Shown here: piece by piece, positions 4,504 through 63,172 of the stretch | How positions within the stretch are numbered: position 1 is the stretch's first letter | Layout of the letters: every line of letters starts with the position of its first letter | Origin: Eubacteriales bacterium | Lineage (GTDB): Bacteria; Bacillota; Clostridia; Oscillospirales; Butyricicoccaceae | Direction of reading: 5' to 3' | NCBI GenBank assembly: GCA_030524285.1 | Contig: JAUNGQ010000005.1 | Coordinates: 62,001-126,000 of the forward strand | Length of the DNA: 64,000 bases | Position numbers and translations under genes: made by a program | The notes under the pieces: generated by a model | Told to the model about the DNA's origin: nothing | The model's database searches: none | The model's input: the letters and a program-made list of their open reading frames with translations, nothing else

Positions 4504-4727
4504 TTTCTCAGTCTGTCGATAAACCTAATCCGCATGTAATAAAGCCTCCCTCTTCGAGGGAGGGGGACCGCCGCGAAGCGGTGGTGGAAGGAGTAAAAAC
4601 GTAGCCTTACTGTATCAATTGAAACCGCTTTGCAGAAGACGAATGCAACCGAACTCCCTCAGTCAGCTTCGCTGACAGCTCCCTCTGGGAGGGAGCCTAG
4701 TATGTATTTTTTCGACAAGCTGAGAAA
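4504..4727 (+). repeat. Full-length extended copy of the dispersed structured element
   Basis: Outer inverted repeats TCTCAGTCTGTCGA (4507-4520) and TCGACAAGCTGAGA bound a core with the GCCTCCCTC-GAGGGAGG stem, a second hairpin ACCGCCGCGAAGCGGTGGT, a central stem, the TCAGCTTCGCTGA hairpin and the closing GCTCCCTC-GAGGGAGC stem. The remainder of the 4224-4792 gap holds a TATAAT-containing AT-rich region for the deacetylase and nothing else recognised. Confidence 0.85.
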
Positions 4728-4792
4728 AATATTTTTCTATTTGTATATTATTTTTTATTTTATACTTTTTGTATTGAAAGGATGGTATGATT

Positions 4793-5263
4793 ATGTCTGT
4801 TACGTATGCATCTTTGACCGAGCAGGAGCAAAATCTGATTTTCTCCTCTTTCTCCCGTGCAGATGCCCTGCGCCTCGGTACGCTCATCAATGAGGCTTCT
4901 GTCGATTATCCGGAGCCGATCGCTACTGAGATCACCATCAACGGTCTTGTCGTTTACCGCTATTTTCAGGATGGCTCCCGCCCGGACAGTGAGCTGTGGC
5001 TGGAACGCAAGCGCAACGCAGTTGATCTGATGCAAATGGGCTCCCTGCGCTTTGGCTGTCTGCTGGAGGAAACCGGTGAATCACTGGAGAGCCGCAAGCT
5101 GAATGCGGATGATTATGCTCCGGGCGGCGGCGGTATGCCGATTATCCTGAAGGATACCGGTGTGATTGGCTCCGTATGTGTTTCCGGTGAGCCGAACCAT
5201 CTGGACGATCAGGCAATTGTCACCAAGGCATTACAACAGCTCAAGGCGGAAAAGGAAGCGTAA
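4793..5263 (+). CDS. UPF0303 / GlcG-HbpS-like heme-degrading domain protein
   Basis: A 156-aa cytosolic protein resembling the GlcG/HbpS (DUF336, UPF0303) fold. Supporting features are the opening helix with a DALRLG segment, the central NGLVVYRYFQDGS-ExxLWLERKRNAV strand-helix unit, and the late Gly-rich GGGGMPI-LKDTGVIGSVCVSG turn typical of this family. Members are small oligomeric proteins; some bind heme or cobalamin, but the cellular role is usually unknown. The start at 4793 has AAAGGA ten bases upstream; an in-frame ATG at 4787 is only four bases from it and less likely. It follows a repeat copy and is followed by a separate promoter, so it is monocistronic. Confidence 0.75.
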   Translation: MSVTYASLTEQEQNLIFSSFSRADALRLGTLINEASVDYPEPIATEITINGLVVYRYFQDGSRPDSELWLERKRNAVDLMQMGSLRFGCLLEETGESLESRKLNADDYAPGGGGMPIILKDTGVIGSVCVSGEPNHLDDQAIVTKALQQLKAEKEA

Positions 5264-5357
5264 CCAAAGGCCCCTTCCTGAAGGAAGTCTGATATCGGAA
5301 CCTGCCCACCATATCATATGGTGGGCAGATTTATTTGTACTTTTGCATCATTTCTGG

Positions 5358-5386
5358 TTGATTCCCGTTGTCTGGACGAGTATAAT
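5358..5386 (+). promoter_or_regulatory. Sigma-A-type promoter of the lipoprotein gene
   Basis: TTGATT, a 17-base spacer, then TATAAT, 34 bases before the ATG. Confidence 0.7.
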
Positions 5387-5420
5387 AGTGGTATCTCACT
5401 GTACATGCAAAGGAGCTATT

Positions 5421-6092
5421 ATGAAAAGAAGATTATTATCCCTGGGTCTTGCTGCCGTCGTTCTGACCGGGTTGCTAACCGGTTGTGGAAGTACCAGGAA
5501 AATTGTAGCATCAGAGACATATGAGGTTGATAAAAATCCTGCTGTAACTGTAGAGGGTGACTGGATTGTCCCGGGTAAAGACCGCGAGCTGACCTTTCAG
5601 GCTGACGGTACCTATACCAGTACCATCTCCAGCTCTATGAACGGCAAATACGTTTATTACAAGGACATTGAAGGCTTTGCGCTTGCCGATGCATTTGATC
5701 AGCTTACCTATGTTGTCCTGTCGGATTCCGATGGCAAGGAACAGATTTTTAGCGCTGTTCTGGGTGATGTCATGGTTGGCTATCACAATCAGGATCAGTG
5801 CTATTATTTCCGTAAAGACCGTGAAATCGTACCGGAAACAGATTTTCTTGGCAGCTGGATAGATGCCTCTGGCGGTAAGTATACCATGACACTGCAAGCG
5901 GACGGTACAGGCAAGCTGGGTGAAGCAGATGACCTGCGCGATTGTACCTACCGTTATTCCGAAGACACCGGATATCTAACCATCACAGATGAGGATACGG
6001 AACAGGAATATGCTGTCGGTATGTATGAGGGCTATCTGTTCCTGATGACTGTCGGAAACTATTACAGCATGTATCTGTACCAACCGGCGTAA
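5421..6092 (+). CDS. Predicted lipoprotein of unknown function
   Basis: A 223-aa exported lipoprotein. The N-terminus MKRR, a hydrophobic stretch and the lipobox LLTGC (Cys22) indicate cleavage by signal peptidase II and anchoring to the outer face of the membrane. The mature part has two similar beta-rich halves, each with a W-x-P or W-I then LTFQADGTYT / MTLQADGTGK motif (about residues 48-65 and 153-168). This resembles the lipocalin-like DUF4923/DUF5640 style repeats of Clostridia, a resemblance not checked. The start is decided by AAAGGAG directly upstream and by the consensus promoter before it; the longer in-frame extension is not expressed from that promoter. Monocistronic, with terminator at 6183-6214. 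Confidence 0.85.
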   Translation: MKRRLLSLGLAAVVLTGLLTGCGSTRKIVASETYEVDKNPAVTVEGDWIVPGKDRELTFQADGTYTSTISSSMNGKYVYYKDIEGFALADAFDQLTYVVLSDSDGKEQIFSAVLGDVMVGYHNQDQCYYFRKDREIVPETDFLGSWIDASGGKYTMTLQADGTGKLGEADDLRDCTYRYSEDTGYLTITDEDTEQEYAVGMYEGYLFLMTVGNYYSMYLYQPA

Positions 6093-6109
6093 AAAATACG
6101 CACAAATCA

Positions 6110-6180
6110 AAGCCTCCCTCTTCGAGGGAGGTGGCGCGGCGTAAGCCGTGACGGACCTTGGTGCAGGTTATTCTAAAACC
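6110..6180 (+). repeat. Truncated dispersed element (left arm)
   Basis: Left-arm stem GCCTCCCTC-GAGGGAGG and hairpin GCGCGGCGTAAGCCGTG, then GGACCTTGGTGCAGGTTATTCT, the junction seen in copies with the 70-bp palindromic core; the rest is lost. Confidence 0.7.
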
Positions 6181-6182
6181 TT

Positions 6183-6214
6183 GCTGCTTTCTCCATGAAG
6201 GCAGCTGTTTTTTT
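6183..6214 (+). terminator. Terminator of the lipoprotein gene
   Basis: Stem GCTGCTTTC/GAAGGCAGC followed by seven or more T residues. Confidence 0.8.
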
Positions 6215-6280
6215 GTTCTGCTTCCCTCTGCTCCTGCATACGATGCCATGACAGTAAAGCTGAAAGGAGAGGCTTTTCTT

Positions 6281-6682
6281 ATGGCTACAGGTAAACTGAT
6301 TGTACAAACCCGTGCCGCTCGTGGCGCTGTGCCCGTTGTCGGCGCCGCTGTGACGATCTTCTGTCCAGATGCGAGCGGTACGCCACAGCCCTGTGTATCT
6401 ACCCGTACCAATACCAGCGGCTCAACAGAAGCGATTGAACTGGAAGCTCCATCTCTGGAGAATGTAGATCCTGACAGTGTCCCACCGTTTGCCGCCTATC
6501 GTGTGGATATCGATCATCCCGATTATCGCCCAGTGACCGTTACGGATGTCGCTGTTTTTTCCAATATTCTTACAACCATGCCGGTTACGATGGTCCCGCC
6601 ACGTTCCATAGAAGAACTGAACAAGCGGATTATCATCCACAGCCCGGAAACCGGCCCCAGCGGATCAGGAAGTGAATCATGA
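6281..6682 (+). CDS. Hypothetical protein, beta-sandwich-like, partner of SpoIID-like protein
   Basis: A 133-aa protein with no signal peptide. Residues 1-105 read like a small carboxypeptidase-regulatory or Ig-like beta-sandwich: GKLIVQTRAARGAVPVVGAAVTI, a TNTSGSTEAIEL turn, and YRVDIDHPDYRPVTV, the pattern of peptidase-associated CarboxypepD_reg domains. The tail is Pro/Gly/Ser-rich. It is preceded by AAAGGAG, 11 bases before the ATG. The last codons overlap the next start (ATGA), so the two genes are translationally coupled and probably act together, perhaps at the spore or cell surface. The function is inferred from the partner only. Confidence 0.7.
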   Translation: MATGKLIVQTRAARGAVPVVGAAVTIFCPDASGTPQPCVSTRTNTSGSTEAIELEAPSLENVDPDSVPPFAAYRVDIDHPDYRPVTVTDVAVFSNILTTMPVTMVPPRSIEELNKRIIIHSPETGPSGSGSES

Positions 6683-8025
6683 CAGATTTTCCATATGTAC
6701 CGGAATTTATTACCGTTCATCTCGGTCCTCCCAATTCTCCTGCACGGAATGTCACTGTCCCGTTTCTGGAATATATCCAGAATGTTGCTTCCAGCGAGCT
6801 GTATCCGACATGGCCGGAAAATGCCCTGCGCGCCAATATCTACGCCCAGGTTTCCTTTGCTTTAAACCGGATTTATACCGAATGGTATCGTTCCCGTGGA
6901 TATGATTTCGATATCACCAATTCCACAGCCTACGATCAGGCATTTGTAGAAGGACGTGATATTTTTGACAATGTCGCGGATATCGTCAACGAACTGTTTG
7001 ACCAGTATCTTGCCCGTCCCAGCTTTATCCAGCCGCTATTTGCCTCCTACTGTGATGGAAGACGGGTACAATGTACTGGTCTGAGCCAATGGGGTACGGT
7101 TGACCTTGCACAGCAGGGCTTGACTCCATATGAAATCCTGACCCATTATTATGGCAATGATCTGGATATCCGCACGGCTCCCATCCGCCCACTTATCCAA
7201 TCTTATCCCGGTACACCACTGCGTATCGGTACGGTTTCCCGCAGTGTTGAAGTGATGCAGGAACGCTTAAATCGGATTTCCAACAATTATCCCGCTATCC
7301 CGAAAATCTACCCGGTCAACGGTGTTTTTGATCTGGATACCTACAATGCTGTCGTAGCGTTCCAGCGGATTTTTAACCTGACGCCGGATGGTGTTGTCGG
7401 GCCATCTACATGGTCCCAGATCACATCTGTTTATACAGCTGTCCGTAATCTTGCCGAACTGACAGCAGAGGGAATTACACTCCAGGATGTATCGCGTGAA
7501 TTGCCAACTGCCCTGCGTGAAGGGATGCAGGGCACCAATATCCGACTGCTGCAATTTTATCTGAGTACAGTCGGTACGTTCAATGACGCTGTACCGGTCA
7601 TCGAAATTGACGGCTTCTTTGGCCCGCTCACACGGGATGCCGTCATTGCCTTCCAGCGTGATGCCGGTCTGACGCCGGATGGTATTGTCGGCCCGAACAC
7701 CTGGAATGCCCTGATCGCCGCCTATGAACAGATTGCGGCTACCCTACAGGATACCGGTAATGTTTCGCTCCCGCCAACAAGTACGCTGGTTCTTGGCTCA
7801 CAATCCAATGATGTTTCCCGATTACAGCAAAACCTCAATCGGCTTTCTGCCTTTTATCCGGAAATCAACCGTATCCCACAGACCGGATATTTTGGCGAAC
7901 AGACCCGAAATGCTGTTCTTGCCTTTCAGCAGATTTTCGGCGAGCCGGTAACCGGAAATGTCTCCCCCTATACGTTCTATTTAATCGAAGTCGCTGCAAA
8001 CCAGGCAGAAATGAACGGATCATAA
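6679..8025 (+). CDS. SpoIID-like / peptidoglycan-binding protein with three PG_binding_1 domains
   Basis: The 448-aa protein has an N-terminal region (about 1-170) with SpoIID/LytB-like features: VPFLEYIQNVASSELYPTWPENALRANIYAQVSFALNRI and, later, GLSQWGTVDLAQQGLTPYEILTHYYGNDLDI. Three peptidoglycan-binding type 1 repeats follow (about 185-260, 275-350, 370-440), each ending in a G-x-F/Y-G/D-x-x-T-x-x-AV-x-AFQ motif. No export signal is visible, as is also seen for some sporulation proteins loaded inside the mother cell. It likely binds or processes spore cortex or cell-wall glycan; Gram-positive spore formers carry such fusions. The start overlaps the preceding stop by four bases. Confidence 0.8.
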   Translation: MTDFPYVPEFITVHLGPPNSPARNVTVPFLEYIQNVASSELYPTWPENALRANIYAQVSFALNRIYTEWYRSRGYDFDITNSTAYDQAFVEGRDIFDNVADIVNELFDQYLARPSFIQPLFASYCDGRRVQCTGLSQWGTVDLAQQGLTPYEILTHYYGNDLDIRTAPIRPLIQSYPGTPLRIGTVSRSVEVMQERLNRISNNYPAIPKIYPVNGVFDLDTYNAVVAFQRIFNLTPDGVVGPSTWSQITSVYTAVRNLAELTAEGITLQDVSRELPTALREGMQGTNIRLLQFYLSTVGTFNDAVPVIEIDGFFGPLTRDAVIAFQRDAGLTPDGIVGPNTWNALIAAYEQIAATLQDTGNVSLPPTSTLVLGSQSNDVSRLQQNLNRLSAFYPEINRIPQTGYFGEQTRNAVLAFQQIFGEPVTGNVSPYTFYLIEVAANQAEMNGS

Positions 8026-8033
8026 ACAACAAA

Positions 8034-8282
8034 CGGTTCCTTCTTGGATGAAGCTGACTGAGGGGCGCGTGCTGCTGAATGCAGCCGAGCGCATGCGAGA
8101 GCGCGCCCCCGGCCAACGTAACAAAACCACTTACAGGTTCACTCCCTACAGGTATTCTGAAACCATGCCGAGCTTGCTTTATCGAAGCAAGCTTTCGGCA
8201 TGATAATCTGTTTCAGAATACGCTGCACCAAGGTCCGTCTTCGCCTGCGGCGAATCCACCTCCCTCGAAGAGGGAGGCTTTG
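8034..8282 (-). repeat. Dispersed element, long variant with palindromic core
   Basis: Reverse-orientation copy. It contains the second module (GGGGCGCG...CGCGCCCCC, 8062-8110), the 70-bp palindrome (8152-8221), and the left arm with hairpin TTCGCCTGCGGCGAA and stem CCTCCCTC-GAGGGAGG. The right arm is truncated. With the next repeat it fills the 8026-8527 gap. Confidence 0.85.
8152..8221. repeat. 70-bp near-perfect palindrome inside the long element
   Basis: Ends GTATTCTGAAAC/GTTTCAGAATAC and inner CATGCCGA-GCTTGCTT/AAGCAAGC-TCGGCATG arms. The same palindrome lies at 12967-13036, and a decayed one at 40750-40818. Confidence 0.85.
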
Positions 8283-8308
8283 GATAAACCCATATCATGT
8301 TAGGAATA

Positions 8309-8466
8309 AGGCTCCCTCCCAGAGGGAGCTGTCAGCGAAGCTGACTGAGGGAGTTTGATTGCATCCGTCTTCTGCACAGCGGTTGCAGTTGATACAGCAA
8401 AGCTACGTTTTCACTCCCTTCGTCTTCGCCTGCGGCGAATCCACCTCCCTCAAAGAGGGAGGCTTG
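8309..8466 (-). repeat. Dispersed structured element, standard core
   Basis: Complete standard copy in reverse orientation: GCTCCCTC-GAGGGAGC, CAGCGAAGCTG, a central stem with CATCCG...CGGTTGCAG, TTCGCCTGCGGCGAA and CCTCCCTC-GAGGGAGG. Confidence 0.85.
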
Positions 8467-12122: not shown

Positions 12123-12175
12123 ACGTGGTTTCCTTTCCGGAATAACAATCTATTTCGGCTTTTATTATAGCACGA

Positions 12176-12191
12176 TGTTTCACGTGAAACA
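12176..12191. other. parS: parS centromere site 1
   Basis: TGTTTCACGTGAAACA, a perfect match to the bacterial parS consensus, placed at the -35 position of the parA promoter. Confidence 0.95.
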
Positions 12192-12227
12192 ACTATTTTA
12201 CGGTATTGTTACACAGTTTATTCCTAT

Positions 12228-12236
12228 TTTTCCACA
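12228..12236 (+). promoter_or_regulatory. DnaA box near parS
   Basis: TTTTCCACA, the same variant used in the oriC of this genome; a single box. Confidence 0.45.
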
Positions 12237-12290
12237 AGATTGCCACAATATAATACCGATGTAAATGCATCAGCAGATGGAGAGATGCAA

Positions 12291-12306
12291 TGTTTCACGT
12301 GAAACA
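12291..12306. other. parS: parS centromere site 2
   Basis: Second perfect TGTTTCACGTGAAACA, 115 bases from site 1, at the edge of the tandem repeat array. Confidence 0.95.
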
Positions 12307-12352
12307 TTGCATATGATATATAAAATATAGTTATTTTCTTTTTGGCACATTT

Positions 12353-13167
12353 AAAGTCTCCCTCTTCGAGGGAGGGGGACCGCCGCGCAGCGGTGGTGGA
12401 GAGAGTAAAACACAAATCTGCTGTATCAGCTGTAACTGCCATGCAGAAGACAAATGCGGTCAAACTCCTTCAGTCCGCTTTGCGGACAGCTCCCTCTCAG
12501 AGGGAGCCTTATTCCTAACGTAACATGGGATTGACAAAAGCCTCCCTCTTTGAGGGAGGTGGATTCGCCGCAGGCGAAGACGAAGGGAGTGAAAACGTAG
12601 CTTTGCTGTATCAATTGCAACCGCTATGCAGAAGACGGATGCAATCAAGCTCCTTCAGTCCGCTTTGCGGACAGCTCCCTCTCAGAGGGAGCCTTATTCC
12701 TAACGTAACATGGGATTGACAAAAGCCTCCCTCTTTGAGGGAGGTGGATTCGCCGCAGGCGAAGACGAAGGGAGTGAAAACGTAGCTTTGCTGTATCAAT
12801 TGCAACCGCTATGCAGAAGACGGATGCAATCAAGCTCCTTCAGTCCGCTTTGCGGACAGCTCCCTCTCAGAGGGAGCCTTATTCCTAACGTAACATGGGA
12901 TTGACAAAAGCCTCCCTCTTTGAGGGAGGTGGATTCGCCGCAGGCGAAGACGGACCTTGGTGCAACGTATTCTGAAACAGATTATCATGCCGAAAGCTTG
13001 CTTCGATAAAGCAAGCTCGGCATGGTTTCAGAATACCTGTAGGGAGTGAACCTGTAAGTGGTTTTGTTACGTTGGCCGGGGGCGCGCTCTCGCATGCGCT
13101 CGACTGCATTCAGCAGCACGCGCCCCTCAGTCAGCTTCGCTGACAGCTCCCTCAGAGAGAGAGCCTT
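12353..13167 (+). repeat. Tandem array of four dispersed elements between parS sites
   Basis: Four head-to-tail units: 12353-12511 (diverged), 12537-12693, 12722-12878 and 12907-13167 (long variant with the 70-bp palindrome at 12967-13036 and the second module at 13065-13125). The middle units repeat with a 185-bp period and are almost identical, including the linker ATTCCTAACGTAACATGGGA. Both arms of each unit hold the paired CTCCCTC/GAGGGAG stems. This fills the gap between parS 2 and parS 3; no gene is present, and the short reading frames here are products of the repeat. Confidence 0.9.
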
Positions 13168-13226
13168 TTGGGATAACCTTTCTGTTGCCGGATAAAACAG
13201 ATTGCTGTCGTTCGCACACATCCTAA

Positions 13227-13242
13227 TGTTTCACGTGAAACA
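13227..13242. other. parS: parS centromere site 3
   Basis: Third perfect TGTTTCACGTGAAACA, just past the rsmG stop. Confidence 0.95.
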
Positions 13243-13247
13243 TTGTA

Positions 13248-20134: not shown

Positions 20135-20215
20135 CGCCCGACTTCCTTTGGTTCCGTATTGCGGGAAAATTTACACTGTTTTCTACCGTACGCGCACAAC
20201 TGATCCAATGATTGC

Positions 20216-20270
20216 GTTCCCTCAGCCCGCGCCAACAGCGCGATCAGCTCCCCCATCGAGGGAGCTTTTG
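20216..20270 (+). repeat. Right-arm fragment of the dispersed element
   Basis: CCCTCAG, a hairpin CGCGCCAACAGCGCG, then GCTCCCCCATCGAGGGAGC. It lies in the 20135-20705 gap between rnpA and rpmH, which also holds a weak hairpin at 20442 and a CTCCCTCCCGGAGGGAG palindrome at 20530-20546; no gene was seen there. Confidence 0.6.
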
Positions 20271-20463: not shown

Positions 20464-20642
20464 TCAATTCTGTTCATGTTTTGTCAAAAGAAACGAAATT
20501 CCTTCCACCGCCACTGTGTGGCGGTTCCTCTCCCTCCCGGAGGGAGACACATATCGCAGCTGAGCCGCATTGCAACACAATATCATGTTACATCAACTCT
20601 CAGCGGGCAGACTGACGGACTCGTATGTTCGGCAGGTCTGCA

Positions 20643-20703
20643 GTGCGCGGGAGCGCACCAGACGTTTCTTTTGCCAAGCTTTTCTTTTTGAAAAGAAAAG
20701 CGG
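20643..20703 (+). repeat. Hairpin repeat type 2, copy 1 (rpmH 3' flank)
   Basis: GCGGGAGCGC, then AGACGTTTCTTTTG, then hairpin GCTTTTCTTTT/AAAAGAAAAGC. The same module is in the gyrA leader (28673-28732), with changed but still paired stem bases. Confidence 0.7.
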
Positions 20704-20705
20704 GA

Positions 20706-20840
20706 TTACAGGCTCAGACGCTTGCGGCCGCGGGAACGACGACGAGCGAGAACCTTTCTGCCGTTAGCAGTTGCCATTCTCTTGCGGAAGCCATGCACCT
20801 TGCTGCGATGACGCTTCTTCGGCTGGAACGTTCTTAACAT
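20706..20840 (-). CDS. rpmH: 50S ribosomal protein L34
   Basis: 44-aa ribosomal protein, [21 protein letters not shown] at the N-terminus, wholly typical of L34. The start at 20840 is fixed by GGAGGTG upstream and family length; the longer in-frame extension is not part of the protein. First gene of the minus-strand replichore side, with a strong promoter. Confidence 0.97.
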
Positions 20841-25230: not shown

Positions 25231-25387
25231 TAGAGCCTCCATCTTGGAGGGGGACCGCCGTGCAGCGGTGGCGGAGGGAGTAAATTTGATCATCTGTTCT
25301 ATCAACCGTAACCGTTGGGCAGAGCACCAATGAACGTAAACTCCCTCAGTCAGCTTCGCTGACAGCTCCCTCTCAGAGGGAGCCTTA
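25231..25387 (+). repeat. Dispersed structured element downstream of recF, copy 1
   Basis: Slightly shortened left stem, hairpin ACCGCCGTGCAGCGGTGGC, a diverged centre, hairpin TCAGCTTCGCTGA and closing stem. Confidence 0.8.
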
Positions 25388-25412: not shown

Positions 25413-25571
25413 AAAGCCTCCCTCTTTGAGGGAGGTGGATTCGCCGCAGGCGAAGACGAAGGGAGTGAAAACGTAGCTTTGCTGTATCAACTGCAACCGC
25501 TGTGCAGAAGACGGATGCAATCAAACTCCCTCAGTCAGCTTCGCTGACAGCTCCCTCTCAGAGGGAGCCTT
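25413..25571 (+). repeat. Dispersed structured element downstream of recF, copy 2
   Basis: Complete standard copy, nearly identical to the units of the 12.5-12.9 kb array. Confidence 0.88.
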
Positions 25572-25598
25572 ATTTCTAACATGACATGGGTTTCTCCA

Positions 25599-25680
25599 GA
25601 GCCTCCCTCTTGGAGGGAGGTGGCACGGCATGAGCCGTGACGGAGGGAGTAACATATCAGCGGTTTTGTCACGTTCGCTT
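25599..25680 (+). repeat. Dispersed element, left-arm fragment downstream of recF
   Basis: Left stem and hairpin CACGGCATGAGCCGTG, then GGTTTTGTCACGTT, a relic of the second module. The remaining bases to 25950 hold the terminator at 25774 and a TATAAT (25885-25890) upstream of remB. Confidence 0.7.
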
Positions 25681-28316: not shown

Positions 28317-28420
28317 CCGAAACAGAAGAACATAGCACAGAAAGGCTCACTCCAAGAGGGAGGCTCTGGATATGATATTGTCATTTCAGCATCACCATCC
28401 CATGAAAACAGGAGAAAACT

Positions 28421-33870: not shown

Positions 33871-34063
33871 AGCTTGTCAAAATAATACAGGTTAGGCTCC
33901 CTCTTCGAGGGAGCTGTCCGCGCTGTTGGCGCGGACTGAGGGAGTTTTATCTCATTTATCCTCTGCATAACTGTTGCAGTTGATACGACAAGCGTTACGT
34001 TTTAAACTCCCTTCGTCACGGCATACGCCGTGCCACCTCCCTCGAAGAGGGAGGCTTTTAGCA
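33871..34063 (-). repeat. Dispersed structured element abutting the rsmI terminator
   Basis: Reverse copy with one outer end AGCTTGTCAAAATAATACAG placed directly after the terminator T-run, then GCTCCCTC-GAGGGAGC, hairpin TCCGCGCTGTTGGCGCGGA, hairpin CACGGCATACGCCGTG and CCTCCCTC-GAGGGAGG. The rest of the 33849-34334 gap has an AT-rich stretch and a terminator. Confidence 0.85.
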
Positions 34064-34817: not shown

Positions 34818-34855
34818 GGTAGTTTCAGTCCTTTACATTACGGTTATACGGTTAT

Positions 34856-35010
34856 AGCTTCCCTGTTTGAGGGAGGTGGCACGGCGTAAGTCGTGACGAA
34901 GGGAGTGAAAAAGTCAGGTGTCTTTTCTCATGAAATCCCTATCAAATTATGATACGACTCCCTCAGTCCGCGCTGTTGGCGCGGACAGCTCCCTCTTAGA
35001 GGGAGCCTAA
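34856..35010 (+). repeat. Dispersed structured element upstream of the thioesterase gene
   Basis: Left stem (CCCTGTTTGAGGG), hairpin CACGGCGTAAGTCGTG, a diverged centre, then TCCGCGCTGTTGGCGCGGA and GCTCCCTC-GAGGGAGC. Confidence 0.8.
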
Positions 35011-40367: not shown

Positions 40368-40641
40368 ATGGAATATCCTCCTGTCAGATATAAAAAATTC
40401 GTATTGGTAAGGCGGTATCAGCTTGCAGATTTTGCTCACTGATTGCCAGTGTTACTCTTGTCTCCTATAATATACACCAATTCGGTATAGTTTTCAACTA
40501 CCCTAGCAAAATTCTGGGAAATAAATTTAGTGTTTCCAAAGCCTAACAAATTTATTTTACTCTTTTCATTTTTGTAATGCAATAGGGAGAAGGCTTTTTG
40601 ATGGGGAGAATATCAGGCTTGTTCAGAGGACGAATGCGATC

Positions 40642-40925
40642 GAACTCCCTCAGGGAGGGAGCCTTATTCCTAACATGACATGGTTTATCCAAAGCCTCCC
40701 TCTTCGAGGGAGGGGGACCGCCGCGCAGCGGTGGTGGACCTTGGTGCAGGTTATTCTGAAACAATGATCATGACGAAAACTTGCTTCTATAAAGCAAGTT
40801 CGGCATGGTTTCAGAATACCTGTAAGGAGTGCAATGGAAATGGATTTGTTACGTTAGACGAAGACTCTCTCGCTAACGCTCGGCTGCATTCAGAAGCACG
40901 AGACCATCAGGGAGGGAGTCTCTTA
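40642..40925 (+). repeat. Dispersed element with decayed palindromic core
   Basis: A short right-arm remnant, linker CTAACATGACATGG, left stem, hairpin ACCGCCGCGCAGCGGTGGT, GGACCTTGGTGCAGG, a decayed 70-bp palindrome (40750-40818), then TTGTTACGTTAGACG and the second module. It fills most of the 40368-40990 gap; no gene. Confidence 0.8.
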
Positions 40926-43310: not shown

Positions 43311-43400
43311 GCAGTCTCTCTTCTGGAGGGAGTAAGGATGTAGCTTTGCTGTATCAACTGCAACCGCTGTGCAGAAGACGGATGCAAACAAATTCTGTCC
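43311..43400 (+). repeat. Dispersed element fragment (centre)
   Basis: TCTCTTCTGGAGGGAGT, then GTAGCTTTGCTGTATCAACTG, CAACCGCTGTGCAGAAGACGGATGC; the right arm is missing. Confidence 0.65.
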
Positions 43401-43453
43401 GTCAGTTCTTTATGTGTACACAGTTTGTACACATAAAATTTACGGTTTTGCGA

Positions 43454-48827: not shown

Positions 48828-48978
48828 GGCTTTCTCAGAGGAGGGGCGTGGGTTGCTGAATGCAGCCGAGCGTTAGAGAGAGCCCCCGGCTAACGTAACA
48901 AAACCATTTACGTTTTACTCCCTTCGTCTTCGCCTATGGCGAATCCACCTCCCTCGAAGAGGGAGGCTCTGGATAAAA
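48828..48978 (-). repeat. Dispersed element with second module
   Basis: GGGGCGTGGGTTGCTGAATG, AGAGAGCCCCCGGCTAACG, then CACTCCC-type junction, TTCGCCTATGGCGAA and CCTCCCTC-GAGGGAGG. It occupies the 48709-49048 gap with an upstream AT-rich stretch; no gene. Confidence 0.75.
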
Positions 48979-51344: not shown

Positions 51345-51522
51345 TCTTTCTGGGAGGGAGGGGAAACATGGGTTTACTGTATCAATTGCACCGCTGTGCA
51401 GAGGACGAATGCAATCGAACTCCCTCAGTCCGCTTCGCTGACAGCTCCCTCTGGGAGGGAGCCTTTTACCTAACGTAAATGGGTTTGACCAAAGCCTCCC
51501 TCGTTTAAGGGAGGTTTTTTTG
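51345..51522 (+). repeat. Dispersed structured element with terminator-like end
   Basis: Reduced left arm, standard centre, hairpin TCCGCTTCGCTGA, closing stem, then a second left stem CCTCCCT/AGGGAGG followed by seven Ts (51495-51521), a good terminator for the orphan gene. It fills most of the 51333-51664 gap; ATGATAAAATAG near 51570 may be the -10 of the next gene. Confidence 0.75.
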
Positions 51523-51664: not shown

Positions 51665-52681
51665 ATGAAGAAAAAATTATTCTTTCTGGTGACACTCATT
51701 ACGGCATGTCTCGCAATGGGTGCGACAGCGATGGCGACGGAGGTTCTCCAGCCGAGCAGTGGCAATGGCCCTGCGCTTACGATTTCGTCCTATGTATACA
51801 AGACAGGTACCGTTACCATTTCCGGTGTTTCCGATCCGGTTACTGTGTACTATGTCCCGGATGGAACCGACATGTCGCTTCCGGAAGGCTATGTGTACGA
51901 AGGAGCACAGTTCAATAAGAGCGGCAGTAAATATGTGAAGTACTATGGCAGAATTTTTGAACATACCCCGGGCATGGCGAGCGGCGATTGGCGTGACTAT
52001 CTCTATTGTGTTACGCCGGTTCAGTATACCGATGAGACAAAGAAAAATTATACCAAATATGACAGCTTCTATTTCTTCCAGTGTGACCGTTCTGCCGACG
52101 ACAGCCCGTTTGTCGATGTAAAGGACAGCGGTAAGTATTACTTTGTACCAACCGTATGGGCATATGAAACAGGCCGAACCTCCGGTACGGATGCAACCCA
52201 TTTCTCGCCGAGCAAAACGTGCAGCCGTGCGGAAATGGTTACATTCCTGTGGAATGCTGCAGGCAAGCCGGAGCCGGTTTCCTCTACAATGCCGTTTGTC
52301 GATGTTTTTGCCGAGAAGTATTACTATAAGGCAGTGCTGTGGGCATATGAGAACGATATCACGGCAGGTATTGACGCAACGCACTTTGGTCCAAATAACG
52401 CTTGTACCCGTTCGCAGGCTGTCGCATTGCTATACCGTACCTACGGCGAATTGGATATCTATGTCAACACGGTAATCAATAACTATCAGCAGATTGATTG
52501 GAAGAGCAAACCCAGCCCGTTTACAGATGTTACCTCCGGCAGCTGGTATTATGATGCAGTCCGCTGGGCATATTATAACGATATTACCTCCGGTGTAGGA
52601 AACAGAAAGTTTGATCCGAATGGAATATGCACACGCGGTCAGATGATTACATTCTTCTTTAACATCAACCAGAAGAGTTAA
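51665..52681 (+). CDS. S-layer homology domain protein, paralogue 1
   Basis: 338-aa secreted protein. Signal peptide MKKKLFFLVTLITACLAMGATAMA with likely cleavage after AMA. A unique N-terminal beta domain (about 25-140) precedes three SLH repeats (about 147-200, 211-265, 285-335), each with FVDV-x-YY-x-A-x-WAYE and TCSRAEMVTFLW or TCTRSQAVALLY elements; SLH domains bind pyruvylated wall polymer. It is 60-70 percent alike to the next gene by eye, so the pair is a tandem duplication. Terminator at 52709. Confidence 0.9.
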   Translation: MKKKLFFLVTLITACLAMGATAMATEVLQPSSGNGPALTISSYVYKTGTVTISGVSDPVTVYYVPDGTDMSLPEGYVYEGAQFNKSGSKYVKYYGRIFEHTPGMASGDWRDYLYCVTPVQYTDETKKNYTKYDSFYFFQCDRSADDSPFVDVKDSGKYYFVPTVWAYETGRTSGTDATHFSPSKTCSRAEMVTFLWNAAGKPEPVSSTMPFVDVFAEKYYYKAVLWAYENDITAGIDATHFGPNNACTRSQAVALLYRTYGELDIYVNTVINNYQQIDWKSKPSPFTDVTSGSWYYDAVRWAYYNDITSGVGNRKFDPNGICTRGQMITFFFNINQKS

Positions 52682-52708: not shown

Positions 52709-52740
52709 AGCAGCCTCCCCAATGCAGGAGGCTGCTTTTT
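52709..52740 (+). terminator. Terminator of SLH paralogue 1
   Basis: AGCAGCCTCC/GGAGGCTGCT stem, then TTTTT. Confidence 0.9.
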
Positions 52741-52897
52741 GGCTCCCTCTTTGAGGGAGCTGTCAGCAAAGCTGACTGAGGGAGTTCGCATTCATTCGTA
52801 TTCCGCACAACAGTTGCAGTTGATATAACAGATTAATAAATTTACTCCCTCCGTCACGGCTTGCGCCGTGCCACCTCCCTCGAAGAGGGAGGCTTGG
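52740..52897 (-). repeat. Dispersed structured element abutting the SLH1 terminator
   Basis: Begins at the T-run end: GCTCCCTC-GAGGGAGC, CAGCAAAGCTG, centre, CACGGCTTGCGCCGTG, CCTCCCTC-GAGGGAGG. The remainder of the 52682-53064 gap has a short fragment (52925-52950) and a promoter-like TTATGATACAAT near 53007. Confidence 0.85.
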
Positions 52898-53064: not shown

Positions 53065-54072
53065 ATGAAGAAAAAATTATTGTTTTTGGTCACGATGATT
53101 ACGGCGTGTCTGGCAATGAGTGCGACGGCGATGGCGGCGCAGGTTCTCCAGCCCAGCAGCGGCGATGGCCCTGCCATCACGATTTCATCTTATGTATATC
53201 GGATGGATAGTGTTCGGGTTTCCGGCGTTTCGGAGCCGGTTACCGTGTATGTTGTGCCGGACGGAACAGAAATGTCATTGCCGGAGGGATATTTTTACAT
53301 AGGAGCACAGCTCAGTAAGACGGGAAGCTATCAATCCTCCTCTGGCGTTTTGGAAAAAGCTCCGCATATGAACAGCGGCAACTGGCGGGATAATATCTAT
53401 CGCGTTACACCGATTCGATATACCGATGAAAAAAAGCAAAACTATGATTCCTATAGCAGCTTCTATTTTATGCAGTGTGACCGTTCGACTGACGATAGTC
53501 CGTTTATCGACGTAAAGGAAAAAAGCAAGTATTATTTCATTCCAACCGTATGGGCCTATGAAACGGGCAGAACCTCTGGTACCGATGAAACGCATTTTTC
53601 ACCGAGCAGAACGTGCAGCCGCGCGGAAATGATTACATTCCTGTGGAACGCTGCGGGTAAGCCGGAACCGTCCTCCTATAGCATCCCATTTGTTGATGTT
53701 TTTACCAGCAACTATTATTACAAGGCTGTGGCATGGGCATATGAGAACAATGTTACAGCGGGTACGGATGCAACACATTTCAGCCCGAAGGATGCATGCA
53801 CCCGTTCGCAGGCAGTTTCGCTGTTGTACCGCGCTTACGGTGAGCTGGAACTATATGATGGCGGTTCTGTTACAACAACATCCAAGATAGAATGGAAGAA
53901 TAAATCCTGTCCGTTTAACGATGTTGCTTCCGGAAGCTGGTACTATGATCCGGTTCGCTGGGCATATTATAACGATATTACCTCAGGCGTTGGAAATAAG
54001 AAATTTGATCCAAATGGAAGCTGCACACGCGCACAGATGATTACGTTTTTCTTTAATATTGTTGATCGTTAA
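53065..54072 (+). CDS. S-layer homology domain protein, paralogue 2
   Basis: 335-aa close paralogue of the preceding gene, same order: signal peptide MKKKLLFLVTMITACLAMSATAMA, N-terminal beta domain, three SLH repeats (about 143-196, 207-261, 280-332). It differs mainly in the N-terminal domain and in the linker before the third SLH repeat. The promoter region upstream also resembles that of paralogue 1, so the duplication included regulatory sequence. Terminator at 54091. Confidence 0.9.
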   Translation: MKKKLLFLVTMITACLAMSATAMAAQVLQPSSGDGPAITISSYVYRMDSVRVSGVSEPVTVYVVPDGTEMSLPEGYFYIGAQLSKTGSYQSSSGVLEKAPHMNSGNWRDNIYRVTPIRYTDEKKQNYDSYSSFYFMQCDRSTDDSPFIDVKEKSKYYFIPTVWAYETGRTSGTDETHFSPSRTCSRAEMITFLWNAAGKPEPSSYSIPFVDVFTSNYYYKAVAWAYENNVTAGTDATHFSPKDACTRSQAVSLLYRAYGELELYDGGSVTTTSKIEWKNKSCPFNDVASGSWYYDPVRWAYYNDITSGVGNKKFDPNGSCTRAQMITFFFNIVDR

Positions 54073-55520: not shown

Positions 55521-55652
55521 TTGGCTCCCTCAGAGGGAGTTTTATCGCAGTTGTCCTCTGCACAGCGGTTGCAATTGATACAGTAACGCTACGTTCTTAC
55601 TCCCTTCGTCTTCGCCTACGGCGAATCCACCTCCCTCAAAGAGGGAGGCCTT
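55521..55652 (-). repeat. Dispersed structured element in the clpB 3' region
   Basis: Short right arm GCTCCCTCAGAGGGAG, standard centre, TTCGCCTACGGCGAA, CCTCCCTC-GAGGGAGG. It would be part of the clpB transcript. Confidence 0.8.
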
Positions 55653-58560: not shown

Positions 58561-58793
58561 CAGTCTGTCGATAAACTCATCTGCATATACAAAAATAAAA
58601 AGGTTGTTCAAGAGCCTCCCTCTTCGAGGGAGGTGGATTCGCCGCAGGCGAAGACGGAGGGAGTTGAATAGAAAATCTTGTCATATCAACTGCAACCGCT
58701 GTGCAGAGGGCAACTGCGATAAAACTCCCTCAGTCAGCTTCGCTGACAGCTCCCTCAAAGAGGGAGCCTAGTCTGTATTGTTTCGACAAGCTA
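58561..58793 (+). repeat. Full-length extended copy of the dispersed element
   Basis: Outer ends CAGTCTGTCGATAAAC and TTCGACAAGCT; core with hairpin TTCGCCGCAGGCGAA, centre, TCAGCTTCGCTGA and closing stem. Same outer ends as the copy at 4504. Confidence 0.88.
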
Positions 58794-58829: not shown

Positions 58830-60668
58830 TTATTCCATCACCAGAATCGTGCCCGAAAGAGGCGCCAGCTGGATATGCCCGTTGATCGTACCTGCATTGA
58901 CAACGCCGCTGCCGGAGAAGCGGGTATCGTCGGTATTGATTAACTCTTTCCAGTCTCCTCCGAGCGCCGGATTGTAGATATCCTCACGGTATAAGCCGAA
59001 ATTCATGACGCAGGCAATCGTCTGGTTTCCGTCTGCGGAGCGGCGGGCAAAGGCAAATACCGTAGGCGGATAATTGGGTGTATCCAACCAGCGGAATGCG
59101 CGCGGATCATATTCCGTATCATATAGCGCACGGTAGCTTCCGCCAACTTCTTGCAGCGCACAGCAGAAGCGATTGAAGGCATCGTGTACCGGATAGGTCA
59201 TCAGATTCCAGCCAAGCTCCTTCTTTTCATCCCATTCGCGAAATTCTGCCAGTTCATTGCCCATAAAATTGAGCACCTTACCCGGATGCGCACACATGTA
59301 TAGATACAATAGACGTACCTGACTGAATTTCTGCTCGTAATTGCCCCACATTTTATCCACAATGGTATGTTTGCCATGCACTACCTCATCATGGGACAGC
59401 GGCAGGATAAACAGATCATCATAAAAATACGCCATGGAGAACATCAGCTTATTGCGAGCGTTATAACGGTCATTGGGATGCAGGCCCATATATTCGAGCG
59501 TATCATTCATCCAGCCCAGATCCCATTTGTAATCAAAGCCCAAGCCGCCATACTGTGGCGGGGCCGTTACCTTGCGGTAGTTGGAGGAATCCTCTGCAAT
59601 CAGCATCACCTGCGGATAGGTCTGCTGCAAATAGAAATTGGTATTGCGCAGGAACCATGTGCCTGGTGCGTTGTCATTGAATTGTCCCGGTTCGCCATTT
59701 TTATAAATGAGCTGGGAAACTGCATCATAGCGAAGGCCGTCAATATGATAATACTGAATCCAGAAATCGAGGGAGGATTTCATAAAGGATAACGTATGCG
59801 GTTTGGTATAATCAAACAGGACGGTACCCCATTCGGTATACCGCTCTGCCGGATTGGAGGATTCATATACAAAGCCGCCGTCAAACTGGTGCAGACCGAA
59901 AAAGTCGGTTACAAAATGCAGCGGAACGACATCCAGAATGACACCGATATTCGCCTGATGGCAACGGTCAATGAATTCCATCAGGCCATATGGGTTACCA
60001 TACCGGCTGGTAGCGGAAAAATATCCGGTTGCCTGATAGCCCCATGAGCCGTCAAATGGATGCTCTGTCAGAGGCATCAGCTCAATATGGGAAAAATGAT
60101 GCTTTTTTACATAGGGAATCAGTGTGTCTGCCAGCTCGGAATAGGTTGGCATACGTCCGAATTCCTGTTCTTCTTCTGTCGGTGCAGTATCCTTGTCCTC
60201 CTGTATGCGGCGCCATGAACCAGCGTGTACCTCATAAATGCTCATAGGGCGGGTATAATTTTTAAAGACCTTCCTGCGGTATTCCATCCATGCGTGATCC
60301 TGCCATGCATAGCCGTCAATGTTCCAGACACGGGATGCATTGCCCGGACGCAGCTCGGAATAAAAGGCAAACGGGTCAGCGCGGTCAATCTGTTTGCCCT
60401 CTGCAGTCGTGGTGCGATATTTATACAGCGCTCCCTGCGGTATATGATCGCAGAAAATCGTCCAGACACCATCGGGACGGCGATCCATCTGCCAGCCTGC
60501 CCAGTTGTTAAACTCGCCTGTCAGTTCCATATTTGCAGCATACGGTGCGTAGACGCGAAATTCGATGCCGTCTTTATCATATTTATGGACAGGATGCGCA
60601 CCAAAGACTTCATATGCTTTTGCACTTTGTCCGGTTAAAAACTCTTGAATTGCTTGATCTATATTCAT
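58830..60668 (-). CDS. glgB: 1,4-alpha-glucan branching enzyme
   Basis: 612-aa GH13 enzyme forming alpha-1,6 branches in glycogen. N-terminal CBM48 (about 25-125), then the barrel: MPLTEHPFDGSWGYQATGYFSATSRYG, GLRYDAVSQLIY (nucleophile Asp; the consensus is GLRVDAV), MLIAEDSSNYRKVT where the acid/base Glu is followed by Asp instead of the usual Glu, and SHDEVVHGKHT. AGGAGG before the ATG at 60668. No other glycogen gene lies in the window. Confidence 0.95.
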   Translation of the reverse strand: MNIDQAIQEFLTGQSAKAYEVFGAHPVHKYDKDGIEFRVYAPYAANMELTGEFNNWAGWQMDRRPDGVWTIFCDHIPQGALYKYRTTTAEGKQIDRADPFAFYSELRPGNASRVWNIDGYAWQDHAWMEYRRKVFKNYTRPMSIYEVHAGSWRRIQEDKDTAPTEEEQEFGRMPTYSELADTLIPYVKKHHFSHIELMPLTEHPFDGSWGYQATGYFSATSRYGNPYGLMEFIDRCHQANIGVILDVVPLHFVTDFFGLHQFDGGFVYESSNPAERYTEWGTVLFDYTKPHTLSFMKSSLDFWIQYYHIDGLRYDAVSQLIYKNGEPGQFNDNAPGTWFLRNTNFYLQQTYPQVMLIAEDSSNYRKVTAPPQYGGLGFDYKWDLGWMNDTLEYMGLHPNDRYNARNKLMFSMAYFYDDLFILPLSHDEVVHGKHTIVDKMWGNYEQKFSQVRLLYLYMCAHPGKVLNFMGNELAEFREWDEKKELGWNLMTYPVHDAFNRFCCALQEVGGSYRALYDTEYDPRAFRWLDTPNYPPTVFAFARRSADGNQTIACVMNFGLYREDIYNPALGGDWKELINTDDTRFSGSGVVNAGTINGHIQLAPLSGTILVME

Positions 60669-60703
60669 GCCGGCCTCCTGATGTTCTAAAATATGTATAT
60701 CCA

Positions 60704-60732
60704 ATTATAGCATTCCCGTATCCTCCACGCAA
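60704..60732 (-). promoter_or_regulatory. Promoter of glgB
   Basis: Minus strand TTGCGT, 17-base spacer, TATAAT, 36 bases before the start. Confidence 0.6.
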
Positions 60733-60888
60733 TGACAAAAAAGCCGTATCATGCGGAAAATATAGTATCTTTTCGTTTTTTTAAACTTTTTTCACTGCAA
60801 TAGATGGATTTTCGTGCATTTTATTTATGTAGACGAATATTAAACAGAATGAGAGAAAAGAATGAAAAAGTAATATGGAAAATTAGCA

Positions 60889-60917
60889 GTGACAAACCCG
60901 TGCTTGTGCGGTATAAT
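60889..60917 (+). promoter_or_regulatory. Promoter of the Ig-like/deacetylase-like gene
   Basis: GTGACA, 17-base spacer, TATAAT. Confidence 0.65.
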
Positions 60918-60968
60918 AAAGCTGTATTACTATTTGCTGATTATTTTATTGGGAGATGATTACATATT

Positions 60969-62879
60969 GTGAAAAGAATCAGGAGACTGGGCTGTGCCAT
61001 ACTGGCGGGCGTTTTACTGTGCGGCGCATTGGCATTTGCATTACCGGATCGTGATAAGGAGGTGCGGGATGCACCGATCCGCACGGTTACACTGGAAGCG
61101 GAAAAGCCGGGAACAGTTGACATGAAAATTGGCGAGCAAGTACAGATTGTTCTGTCAGGTATGGCAGAAGAGGCTGCGGATGCCAACGGCAGCGGGGATA
61201 CAACAAAAACTGAATCCGGAGATGGCTCCGGCTGGACGCAGTCCGGAAAAGGCATATGGTATTCGGAGCACGAAGACATTGCCTCTGTAGATGAAAATGG
61301 CAGAATTACAGCAAAGGCAGAGGGAAAGACGATCATTTATATGTCTGTTCCGCAGGGCGTTGTATCCTGTGAAGTGATTGTCACAGGCTATGCAATGACC
61401 GGAATGGAGCTGTTTGCACAATCGGAGATGCGTGTCGGGGAAAGTCAGACCATACAGGCGGAAATCACACCGAAAGAGGCTGCGGATACAAAGCTGGAAT
61501 GGTCCTCTGACAATACAGATATTTTAACTGTCAATCAGGATGGTGTTGTGACAGCGGTGAGCACCGGTAAGGCTACGATTACAGCAAAGGCAGAAAACGG
61601 GATGACGGCTGATATGGCGATCGCGGTTACCGGCTATGTGATCGAAAGCATTTCCGTGGAACCATCCGCGCTGACCATGTATGTTGGGGACAGCAAAGAG
61701 GTCACGGTAACGACAAAGCCGGAGGGCAGTGATCCGGGAAAGCTGACATGGGAATCGAGCAATACCAGCGTTGCATATTACAAGGATGGAAAAATGGAAG
61801 CAAAAGCTGCCGGCGAGGCAGTTATCACGGTGACCAATGCGGATGGTATGAAAGCGGAATGCACGGTGACAGTAAAGGATGCCAGGCTTTCGTTGAATTA
61901 TACTACATATGATAAGCTGAAAATTGGTGAAACGGTTACACTCAAGGCGACGGTCACACCGGAGGGGCTTGCTGTTGCATGGTCTTCCGACAATCCGGTT
62001 GTAGCAACGGTTGACAAGGACGGCAAGGTAACAGGCAGGAAAACGGGTACGGCTGATATTATTGCCAGAGCAGGCGGATTGCAGGCAATGTGCAAGGTAA
62101 CGGTAGTGAACGCATCTGTTGACACGACAAAGCCGTCCAATATAACCAGGCCTTCCGGTAATATTGGAGCAACAGGCATCACCAATGGTATCACCAATGG
62201 GACACCGTATCATTTTACAAATTCCATTGGAAACGGCGGCGTCTTGTATATTCCGGGCGCCATTACCCAGCTCAACGCATTATATACGATGCCGGCCAAT
62301 ATTCCATCGGCGGTTTATCTGACGGTAGACAGTGCGTTGGATGTGAATACGGAAAGCATTTTGAATCAGCTTTCTGCCAGCGGTATGCATGCTACCTTCT
62401 TTGTACCGATCAATGATCTGTATCAGGCAGATGATATGCTGCGTCATATTGCAGGCAGTGGCAACAGCATTGGCTTCCTGTTGACACCGGAACAGGCAGC
62501 AGGAAATGTTCAGGAGCTGTTGGAAAATGCCAATCAACAGATATCTGTGATTACCGGTACGCCAACCCGTCTGGTACGCATTGCAGGCGGCAGCAGTGGG
62601 AATATCACCTCAGAGACTGCGGCGGCATTGATTGCTGCCGGCTATCGCGTGTGGGATTGGAATACTGCTGCACGGGAGGATACGATGACGGCAGATAGCT
62701 GTTATCAGGCTGTAGCCGGAGCCATGAACACCACGGGCGAAGTTACGATTCAGTTCGGCGGCGGTGCGAATACAGCTTCTGTCATGCAGCAGCTGTTGCC
62801 GTATATGAAGTACTGTGGTATCTCGGCAGAAAGAATCAATGCGGCAGATACTGCGGTGTGCAATACTGCTGTTGGATAA
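60969..62879 (+). CDS. Secreted BIG2/Ig-like protein with degenerate polysaccharide deacetylase domain
   Basis: 636-aa surface protein. N-terminal signal or anchor (about 5-26), a diverged Ig-like domain (35-140, with a Gly/Ser/Asp-rich insert), three clear BIG2 domains (about 141-221, 222-303, 304-380; repeated LEWSSDNTDILTVNQDGVVTAVSTGKATITA pattern), a Thr/Asn/Gly linker, and a C-terminal NodB-like fold (about 425-625). In that fold TFDDGP has become TVDSAL, the metal HxxxH region reads GNSIGFLLT, and RFPGG reads RIAGG, so it is probably inactive and may only bind glycan. GTG start, GGGAG 13 bases upstream. Compare the active deacetylase at 2667-4223. Confidence 0.85.
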   Translation: MKRIRRLGCAILAGVLLCGALAFALPDRDKEVRDAPIRTVTLEAEKPGTVDMKIGEQVQIVLSGMAEEAADANGSGDTTKTESGDGSGWTQSGKGIWYSEHEDIASVDENGRITAKAEGKTIIYMSVPQGVVSCEVIVTGYAMTGMELFAQSEMRVGESQTIQAEITPKEAADTKLEWSSDNTDILTVNQDGVVTAVSTGKATITAKAENGMTADMAIAVTGYVIESISVEPSALTMYVGDSKEVTVTTKPEGSDPGKLTWESSNTSVAYYKDGKMEAKAAGEAVITVTNADGMKAECTVTVKDARLSLNYTTYDKLKIGETVTLKATVTPEGLAVAWSSDNPVVATVDKDGKVTGRKTGTADIIARAGGLQAMCKVTVVNASVDTTKPSNITRPSGNIGATGITNGITNGTPYHFTNSIGNGGVLYIPGAITQLNALYTMPANIPSAVYLTVDSALDVNTESILNQLSASGMHATFFVPINDLYQADDMLRHIAGSGNSIGFLLTPEQAAGNVQELLENANQQISVITGTPTRLVRIAGGSSGNITSETAAALIAAGYRVWDWNTAAREDTMTADSCYQAVAGAMNTTGEVTIQFGGGANTASVMQQLLPYMKYCGISAERINAADTAVCNTAVG

Positions 62880-62892
62880 TCGGATAGCAAAG

Positions 62893-62928
62893 CCGCATGA
62901 TGGAGTATTTCTGTCATGCGGTTTTTTT
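62893..62928 (+). terminator. Terminator of the Ig-like protein gene
   Basis: CCGCATGA/TCATGCGG stem, then seven Ts. Confidence 0.9.
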
Positions 62929-62960
62929 GTGGAAAGCTTTTCGACAGCACAAAAAACTGG

Positions 62961-62974
62961 TATACTATAGTATA
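62961..62974. promoter_or_regulatory. Palindromic operator candidate upstream of the FadR-type gene
   Basis: TATACTATAGTATA, a perfect 14-bp palindrome overlapping -10-like TATACT/TATAAT sequences; FadR-subfamily GntR regulators bind short palindromes of this kind. Confidence 0.5.
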
Positions 62975-63003
62975 ATAAAGAAAAGATTGAACTGGCATTG
63001 CAC

Positions 63004-63172
63004 CAAGGCTCCCTCAGACGAGGGAGTTGTCAGCGAAGCTGACTGCGGGAGGGATAGCATAGTTTCAAATCTGTAGAAAAGTTGCAATTGATATGAATGC
63101 TGTACTGTTCAACTCCCTCCGTCATTTGCTTACGCAAATGCCACCTCCCTCCTCTGAGGGAGGCTTTCTGAT
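63004..63172 (-). repeat. Dispersed structured element in the leader of the FadR-type gene
   Basis: GCTCCCTC-GAGGGAG, CAGCGAAGCTG, a diverged centre, hairpin CATTTGCTTACGCAAATG, then CCTCCCTC-GAGGGAGG. The hairpin differs completely from other copies but is still perfectly paired. Confidence 0.85.

Follow-up and report, generated by a model that had tools for sequence, protein, structure and literature searches.

We analysed a 64,000-nucleotide stretch of DNA from a Eubacteriales bacterium of the family Butyricicoccaceae (contig JAUNGQ010000005.1 of assembly GCA_030524285.1, positions 62,001 to 126,000; hereafter, the window). Scattered between its genes is a family of mobile, hairpin-rich elements. 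A reading of the window made without database searches (the sequence-only reading) had already proposed a dispersed family of structured elements, with copies in both orientations. A profile built from 10 window copies (match cut-off E <= 0.01) bears this out: it has 25 non-overlapping matches in the window, on both strands (best E = 7e-50), versus none in the reversed, uncomplemented window. Twelve copies are full length (the 10 seeds of the profile and those at 8307 and 12722). The element modules named A and B, and the hairpins H1 to H4, are described below the list.

2632 to 2648, no strand: lone CTCCCTC/GAGGGAG hairpin
4493 to 4508 and 4723 to 4738: palindrome AGAAAAATAT(G/T)TTTCT, flanking the 4.5-kb composite
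4509 to 4722, + strand: composite with outer ends CAGTCTGTCGA..TCGACAAGCTG and a full copy inside at 4541 to 4700
6109 to 6155, + strand: B module (H1H2) by itself
8234 to 8281, - strand: B module
8307 to 8465, - strand: full copy
12353 to 12511, + strand: full copy that opens the 185-bp tandem array
12537 to 12696, + strand: full copy in the array
12722 to 12881, + strand: full copy in the array
12907 to 13168, + strand: B module (12907 to 12954) and A module (13124 to 13168) enclosing other sequence
20180 to 20267, + strand: weak partial match (E = 2e-4)
20497 to 20548, - strand: weak partial match (E = 0.003)
25233 to 25387, + strand: full copy in an array
25413 to 25572, + strand: full copy in the same array
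25599 to 25671, + strand: third copy of that array, truncated
28346 to 28389, - strand: end fragment, detected as a repeat only
33893 to 34057, - strand: full copy
34855 to 35010, + strand: full copy
40619 to 40738, + strand: end of one copy, a linker, and the B module of the next copy
43324 to 43406, + strand: core fragment
48898 to 48969, - strand: B module within a larger insertion
51353 to 51465, + strand: copy without H1H2
52740 to 52895, - strand: full copy adjoining a terminator-like hairpin
55533 to 55649, - strand: near-full copy with the clpB stop codon on one side and a terminator-like hairpin on the other
58561 to 58792, + strand: composite with a full copy inside at 58612 to 58771 and the terminator-like hairpin AAGAACCGCCGAAGCGGTTCT duplicated at both sides
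63005 to 63167, - strand: divergent full copy

The positions given by the sequence-only reading fall on these matches, but 2577 corresponds to the lone hairpin and 20216 to a weak match, while 4504, 33871, and 58561 begin in the flanks of a longer composite. It had also placed the copies only between genes. Judged by crude calls of open reading frames (ORFs; the coding fraction of the window is 0.80), this holds in the window, where none of 20 merged intervals lies mostly inside a gene. It is not established beyond the window: 34 of 143 intervals from other genomes were placed inside ORFs (again by a crude caller).

The element consists of two modules of about 48 nucleotides, inverted with respect to each other, with a variable core between them. 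Read in one orientation, H1 (CCTCCCTC, loop, GAGGGAGG) and H2 (TGG, hairpin, GAC) are followed by GGAGGGAGT and the core; after the core come ACTCCCTC, H3 (AGTC, hairpin, G(A/C)CA), and H4 (GCTCCCTC, loop, GAGGGAGC). The reverse complement of H1H2 reads C, GTC, hairpin, GCCA, and CCTCCCTC.., so both ends are the same module, inverted. We call H3H4 the A module and H1H2 the B module. Their shared plan is (A/C)GTC-hairpin-G(A/C)CA plus a CTCCCTC/GAGGGAG hairpin. (Our module pattern omits variants such as GGGACC..GGTGGT, and overlapping loci were removed from the counts of modules, feet, and neighbours.)

The consensus of the module is strict. The bases that precede GTC and the second hairpin vary together: among 60 modules from the host genome (G000; 1.56 Mb in 23 contigs, 73% complete), 37 have A with G and 19 have C with C, with 4 exceptions. 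In 54 modules from other genomes, fetched with a covariance model, the numbers are 36, 18, and 0. In 159 modules from loci that we fetched from GTDB contigs with an A-module probe (and which are biased for that reason), they are 130, 28, and one. The feet themselves, counted with one pattern, are AGTC (37), CGTC (22), or GGTC (1) in the 60 host modules, and AGTC (36) or CGTC (18) in the 54 foreign ones; CGTC is found on the B type only. The tail in 30 distinct H3 is GACA (22) or GCCA (8), as the search pattern demanded G(A/C)CA. The second pair of the stem is a T.C mismatch (G.A on the opposite strand) in 31 of 44 distinct H2. Among 11 distinct copies from the host, the core measures 60-62 bp; among 31 distinct foreign ones, it ranges from 2 to 115 bp, and, judged by eye, most genera differ in its sequence.

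Modules are also arranged in a regular way. The 185-bp tandem array has 2.8 units with 98% matches, and repeats the order B-core-A-linker, with linkers of about 25 bp. When neighbouring modules lie within 250 bp, the commonest pair is B..A, both in the host (B..A 12, A-A 7, A..B 6; n=25) and in the probe-fetched loci (B..A 23, A-A 9, A..B 11, A..a 2; n=45).

Is the structure conserved? All 44 distinct H2 and 35 of 38 distinct H3 can form a hairpin. The sequence-only reading held that the second hairpins vary yet stay paired, and this was confirmed. Across the first five pairs of H2 (27 distinct TGGC..GAC hairpins), 94% are Watson-Crick, versus 56% (at most 70%) if the 3' halves are swapped between hairpins; across four pairs of H3 (30 distinct), the corresponding numbers are 93% and 60% (at most 74%). 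(The first pair in each set was fixed by the selection pattern.) In the alignment to our covariance model (R1), each of the 6 pairs in helix 2 shows changes in both partners. This model's structure is one column off register in most helices, so it acts mainly as a sequence model, and we used its pair counts for helix 2 only. A fold of another alignment (A1) has no pair that is altered on both sides, a consequence of how MAFFT misaligned the variant hairpins. The inner stem extends 3.45 pairs into the core versus 1.47 after swapping (at most 2.1; 40 copies). In contrast, the central stem that had been proposed (ATTGCAnCCG/CGGnTGCAAT) is not a conserved helix: it is near-intact in a few copies, and across 28 copies, 5.71 of 10 positions pair, versus 5.69 in the swapped control. 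Predicted folds vary between separate hairpins and a cloverleaf or long hairpin.

That kept pairing implies selection, as had been argued, is too strong a conclusion. Quasi-palindrome correction is a known mutational process. It could match the two sides of a stem on its own, as could the exchange of whole hairpins, and within the host, hairpins do differ blockwise (8 types of H2 and 8 types of H3). The fixed bases of the foot and the tail, which lie outside the stems, point the other way, although our search patterns partly demand them. On balance we think it somewhat unlikely, though a serious alternative, that the apparent compensatory changes are mutational and not selected. A mutational origin of the pairing is compatible with mobility in any case. 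Nor does structural conservation, which hairpin correction could mimic, tell whether RNA or DNA is the molecule that folds.

The evidence for mobility comes from comparing genomes. At all nine sites that we examined (4541, 6109, 8050, 25233, 33893, 34855, 48.9k, 55.5k, and 58.6k), at least one of three genomes of the same genus (G119, G121, and G126) has the flanking genes without the element. At the clpB site, the element separates the stop codon from a terminator-like hairpin that all three of these genomes have, and the B module at 6109 likewise separates a stop codon from a terminator-like hairpin. (The insertion at 48.9k contains more than the element.) Thus, the element is mobile, as seen from its presence and absence between congeneric genomes.

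The family is also patchily distributed, as a covariance-model search of the host and its relatives showed. The host has 67 blastn matches to a single copy and 117 model matches (some model matches count a palindromic copy once per strand). Across 12 genomes of the genus, 8 have matches, and the count ranges from 0 to 117; four other species have 60, 51, 42, and 16, and G118, G120, G122, and G124 have none. Carriers besides the host include G117, G123, G126, and G127. In the order, matches are found in 46 of 117 genomes and in 33 of 74 genera. An exact 29-mer from the A module occurs in at least 113 stretches of GTDB contigs. Eighty of these are from 41 assemblies, four of which are labelled Selenomonas or Veillonellaceae; the others have Clostridia-type or plain Firmicutes/Bacillota labels. 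Seven of the nine full copies under the Selenomonas or Veillonellaceae labels share a core whose inner stem is TCTCACAAG/CTTGTGAGA, which speaks against simple contamination. In a sample of 398 genomes from the phylum, one variant of the A module (a 28-mer, with up to 2 mismatches) was found only in the host itself, but this search undercounts, because G013, with 16 model matches, was negative.

Phages and plasmids do not seem to be the main vehicle: the exact 29-mer is on just one viral contig, and partial matches are on 13 phage records and one plasmid. (A plasmid of Deinococcus aetherius has a 37-bp match to the A module, at 92%, which is intergenic, at L210:1501-1537.)

The sequence-only reading had left two options, a non-autonomous mobile unit or a structured RNA. 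The first is strengthened by the empty sites and the patchy distribution. Specifically, we propose that the element is a REPIN-like (or BIME-like, after bacterial interspersed mosaic elements) non-autonomous mobile element, with a probability of roughly 70%. Its two double-hairpin modules, inverted around the variable core, would allow each strand to fold as separate hairpins or as a cloverleaf or long hairpin. An enzyme that acts on folded or single-stranded DNA would recognise the GTC-foot hairpin (often with its T.C mismatch) together with the GAGGGAG hairpin, and the recognised unit would be inserted between genes. Tandem arrays of 185 bp would then grow by duplication together with the linker. 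Of this account, the structure, the presence and absence at sites, the patchy distribution, and the arrangement in arrays are observed, whereas we infer the enzyme, a route through single-stranded DNA, and any influence on the ends of mRNAs.

Several results weigh against this proposal. First, the nine empty sites were selected where gaps in alignments indicated an empty site, and seven further sites (12353, 20180, 40619, 43324, 51353, 52740, and 63005) gave no resolved comparison. Second, Y1 transposases (PF01797) were not found in the host genome, which is 73% complete. They are present in 41 of the 117 genomes of the order, and their association with the element is not significant (20/26/21/50 genomes; Fisher p = 0.16). 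Of the 21 genomes with at least 10 element matches, 11 lack Y1, and within the genus, Y1 is in 2 of 5 element-rich and 2 of 7 element-poor genomes. In 32 of the 33 distinct Y1 loci that we read, no module is nearby. Third, no autonomous copy was found in a scan of three ORFs enclosed by module pairs. The sole B..A pair observed to enclose an ORF of more than 100 amino acids carries HypD (L137); the other two enclosed ORFs that we scanned encode DUF559 (L053) or have no match in Pfam (L034). Fourth, the GTAG tag is absent from the feet of the modules. A caveat is that the search for a mobiliser covered Y1 and IS110, which are a small part of the transposase families.

IS110 is in 2 of 5 element-rich and 3 of 7 element-poor genomes of the genus, so neither it nor the Y1 transposases are supported as universal mobilisers by their distribution or by the survey of loci. 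The exceptional Y1 locus (L253, which is the same as L154) is in the element-rich genome G007, and has two A-module matches (L253:950-1213) on one side of the Y1 gene, about 270-530 bp away.

These results also bear on whether the family consists of REPINs proper, with their REP-associated tyrosine transposase (RAYT, a Y1 protein) missing merely because the host assembly is 73% complete. (REP stands for repetitive extragenic palindrome.) The anatomy is a close match to that described for REPINs (PMC3116915). Also, the T.C mismatch recalls the conserved stem mismatch that TnpA_REP requires in E. coli, besides the foot tetranucleotide (PMC8266576); any likeness between these mismatches is an analogy. 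But G123 and G127, which are of the same genus, element-rich, and 94-99% complete, have no Y1 match either. Along with the near absence of modules around Y1 genes and feet of AGTC or CGTC, this makes the hypothesis improbable.

A structured non-coding RNA family, or a 3'-UTR (untranslated region) stabiliser, spread by duplication, is the other option that had been raised. It could explain the compensatory changes in the hairpins and helix 2. The copy after clpB lies past the stop codon and ahead of a terminator-like hairpin, and so is probably transcribed, and 12 of the 20 window intervals begin no more than 60 bp from a stop codon, as the crude ORF calls place it. In other genomes, however, gene ends are not preferred (32 of 58 gaps are nearer to a 3' end). 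The copies are in both orientations relative to genes, and the unit, being palindromic, gives matches on either strand. Cores that vary from 2 to 115 bp, and congeneric species that lack the element at the same site, also fit poorly with an RNA. In Rfam, the window has no match above the cut-off, and eight foreign loci gave five matches, all far under it. Overall, although structure is conserved, no result favours RNA in particular, and we consider this explanation quite unlikely.

Next, consider how the element inserts. If it were an ordinary miniature inverted-repeat transposable element (MITE) of a DDE insertion sequence, then it should have terminal inverted repeats and short target duplications. 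The loops of H1 and H4 are complementary to each other in 9 of 31 foreign copies (versus 1.9 expected by shuffling), but in none of 11 host copies (1.3 expected). Around 45 foreign copies, whose boundaries are only rough, short direct repeats are not in excess; instead, inverted similarity between the flanks is raised (14 versus 5.2 expected at 4 nucleotides, with a maximum of 11). This suggests that the ends of the element may extend further or may sit in palindromes. Direct repeats of at least 15 bp flank only 8 of 64 copies (0.2 expected), and these are three composites, three array spacers, L058, and L174. (At L058:7062-7165, a nearly core-less copy of 104 bp has a 33-bp direct repeat about 15 bp beyond both ends.) The composites do show inverted ends and flanking direct repeats, as a MITE would, but as an account of the family as a whole, we view an ordinary MITE as having little chance of being right.

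The composites have ends CAGTCTGTCGATAAA..TCGACAAGCT. The host has 8 right ends (a control pattern gave 0), 5 of which are paired with a left end no more than 300 bp away. Four of these five two-ended composites are 213-232 bp, carry the element, and have a palindrome of 16-28 bp repeated directly on either side (with one mismatch at the 4.5-kb composite). Two of the palindromes are terminator-like with a T-run, one is a GCTCCC..GGGAGC hairpin that resembles H4, and one is AT-rich. The fifth composite (L306) is 97 bp and internally deleted, with a degenerate hairpin inside, a terminator-like hairpin on its left, and no duplication. At the empty sites for 4.5 kb (in G121) and 58.6 kb (in G119), related sequence is present once. 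Because four of five composites are flanked by palindromes, and the empty sites of two carry related sequence once, we tentatively suggest that the composite might integrate at DNA hairpins. An enzyme might cut at both feet of a palindrome, with repair duplicating the whole palindrome, whose length (16-28 bp) would then set that of the target duplication. We regard this as doubtful. If it is true, it would be an unfamiliar insertion mechanism, and a new integration mode for a REP-like element that lacks a RAYT.

Finally, dispersed bidirectional intrinsic terminators are very unlikely to be what these elements are: some copies have a T-run after H4 or H1 (such as L164), but at least 5 T in positions 2-9 past H4 are found in only 5 of 31 distinct foreign copies, and the clpB and 58.6-kb sites retain a separate terminator-like hairpin.

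The window contains other repeats. The stretches at 12955-13123 and 8050-8233, within disrupted copies of the element, belong to another repeat, which combines a GC-rich palindromic block with a long hairpin (GTATTCTGAAAC..GTTTCAGAATAC). (8050-8281 is the mirror of the disrupted element at 12907-13138.) An arm at 40764-40831 is related to this long-hairpin repeat. About 20597-20710 and 8062-8125 are probably two further dispersed families; they match many places in genomes of the same genus (the element-poor G119 among them), and G121 and G124 each have one of the two. Near the mnmG/mnmE cluster are three TTTCACGTGAAA palindromes (12170-12310 and 13225-13245), which we take to resemble parS sites for ParB. 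Also, the adjacent genes at 51665-52681 and 53065-54072 are apparently paralogues, with stretches of DNA that are 78-82% identical.

We did not find a description of this element in the open-licence literature, which was the scope of our search (subscription papers and preprints fall outside it). For annotators, the covariance model offers a handle on intergenic repeats in many metagenome-assembled genomes of Clostridia from animal guts and rumens, and in some genomes whose records are titled Selenomonas or Veillonellaceae. And because the family is abundant, has filled and empty sites among congeners, and has a strict module consensus, one could look for the missing enzyme by comparing carriers to non-carriers or by pull-down.

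How does the element compare to known systems? Like a MITE, it is short, non-coding, and multicopy, with inverted-repeat ends, but no short target duplication was seen at its rough boundaries and no parent insertion sequence was found among Y1 and IS110. Like BIMEs, it has alternating module orientations and two kinds of spacer, and in the host the 185-bp array gives them a regular period; its sequence is unrelated, and it lacks the GTAG tag. The CGTC-tagged REPs (PMC3733652) resemble it in forming dimers and in the apparent lack of a dedicated transposase, and the paper leaves open what mobilises those without a RAYT. They may also share the CGTC foot, which here is borne by the B module only, and a CCA-like tail, which our pattern partly demanded. 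They permit TGTC and CCTC variants, and the main text of the paper does not contain the words Firmicutes or Clostridi-. Our element differs in that its A module has AGTC and in that the CTCCCTC/GAGGGAG hairpin belongs to the module. Also, the AT rule for stem positions 1 and 2 fails (AT or TA in 22 of 27 distinct H2 at the first position and 9 of 27 at the second). As the tag is confined to one type of module and the stem rule does not hold, we do not class it as a CGTC REP. We do not class it as a REPIN either, because we looked for linkage to a RAYT and for the GTAG foot and found neither; it also has two hairpins per module. Still, REPINs (PMC3116915) are extragenic inverted doublets of palindromic modules with a pairing spacer. 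They fold as a clover or as a long hairpin, show compensatory changes, and form ordered tandem clusters that include their flanks, and our element is like them in all of these ways.

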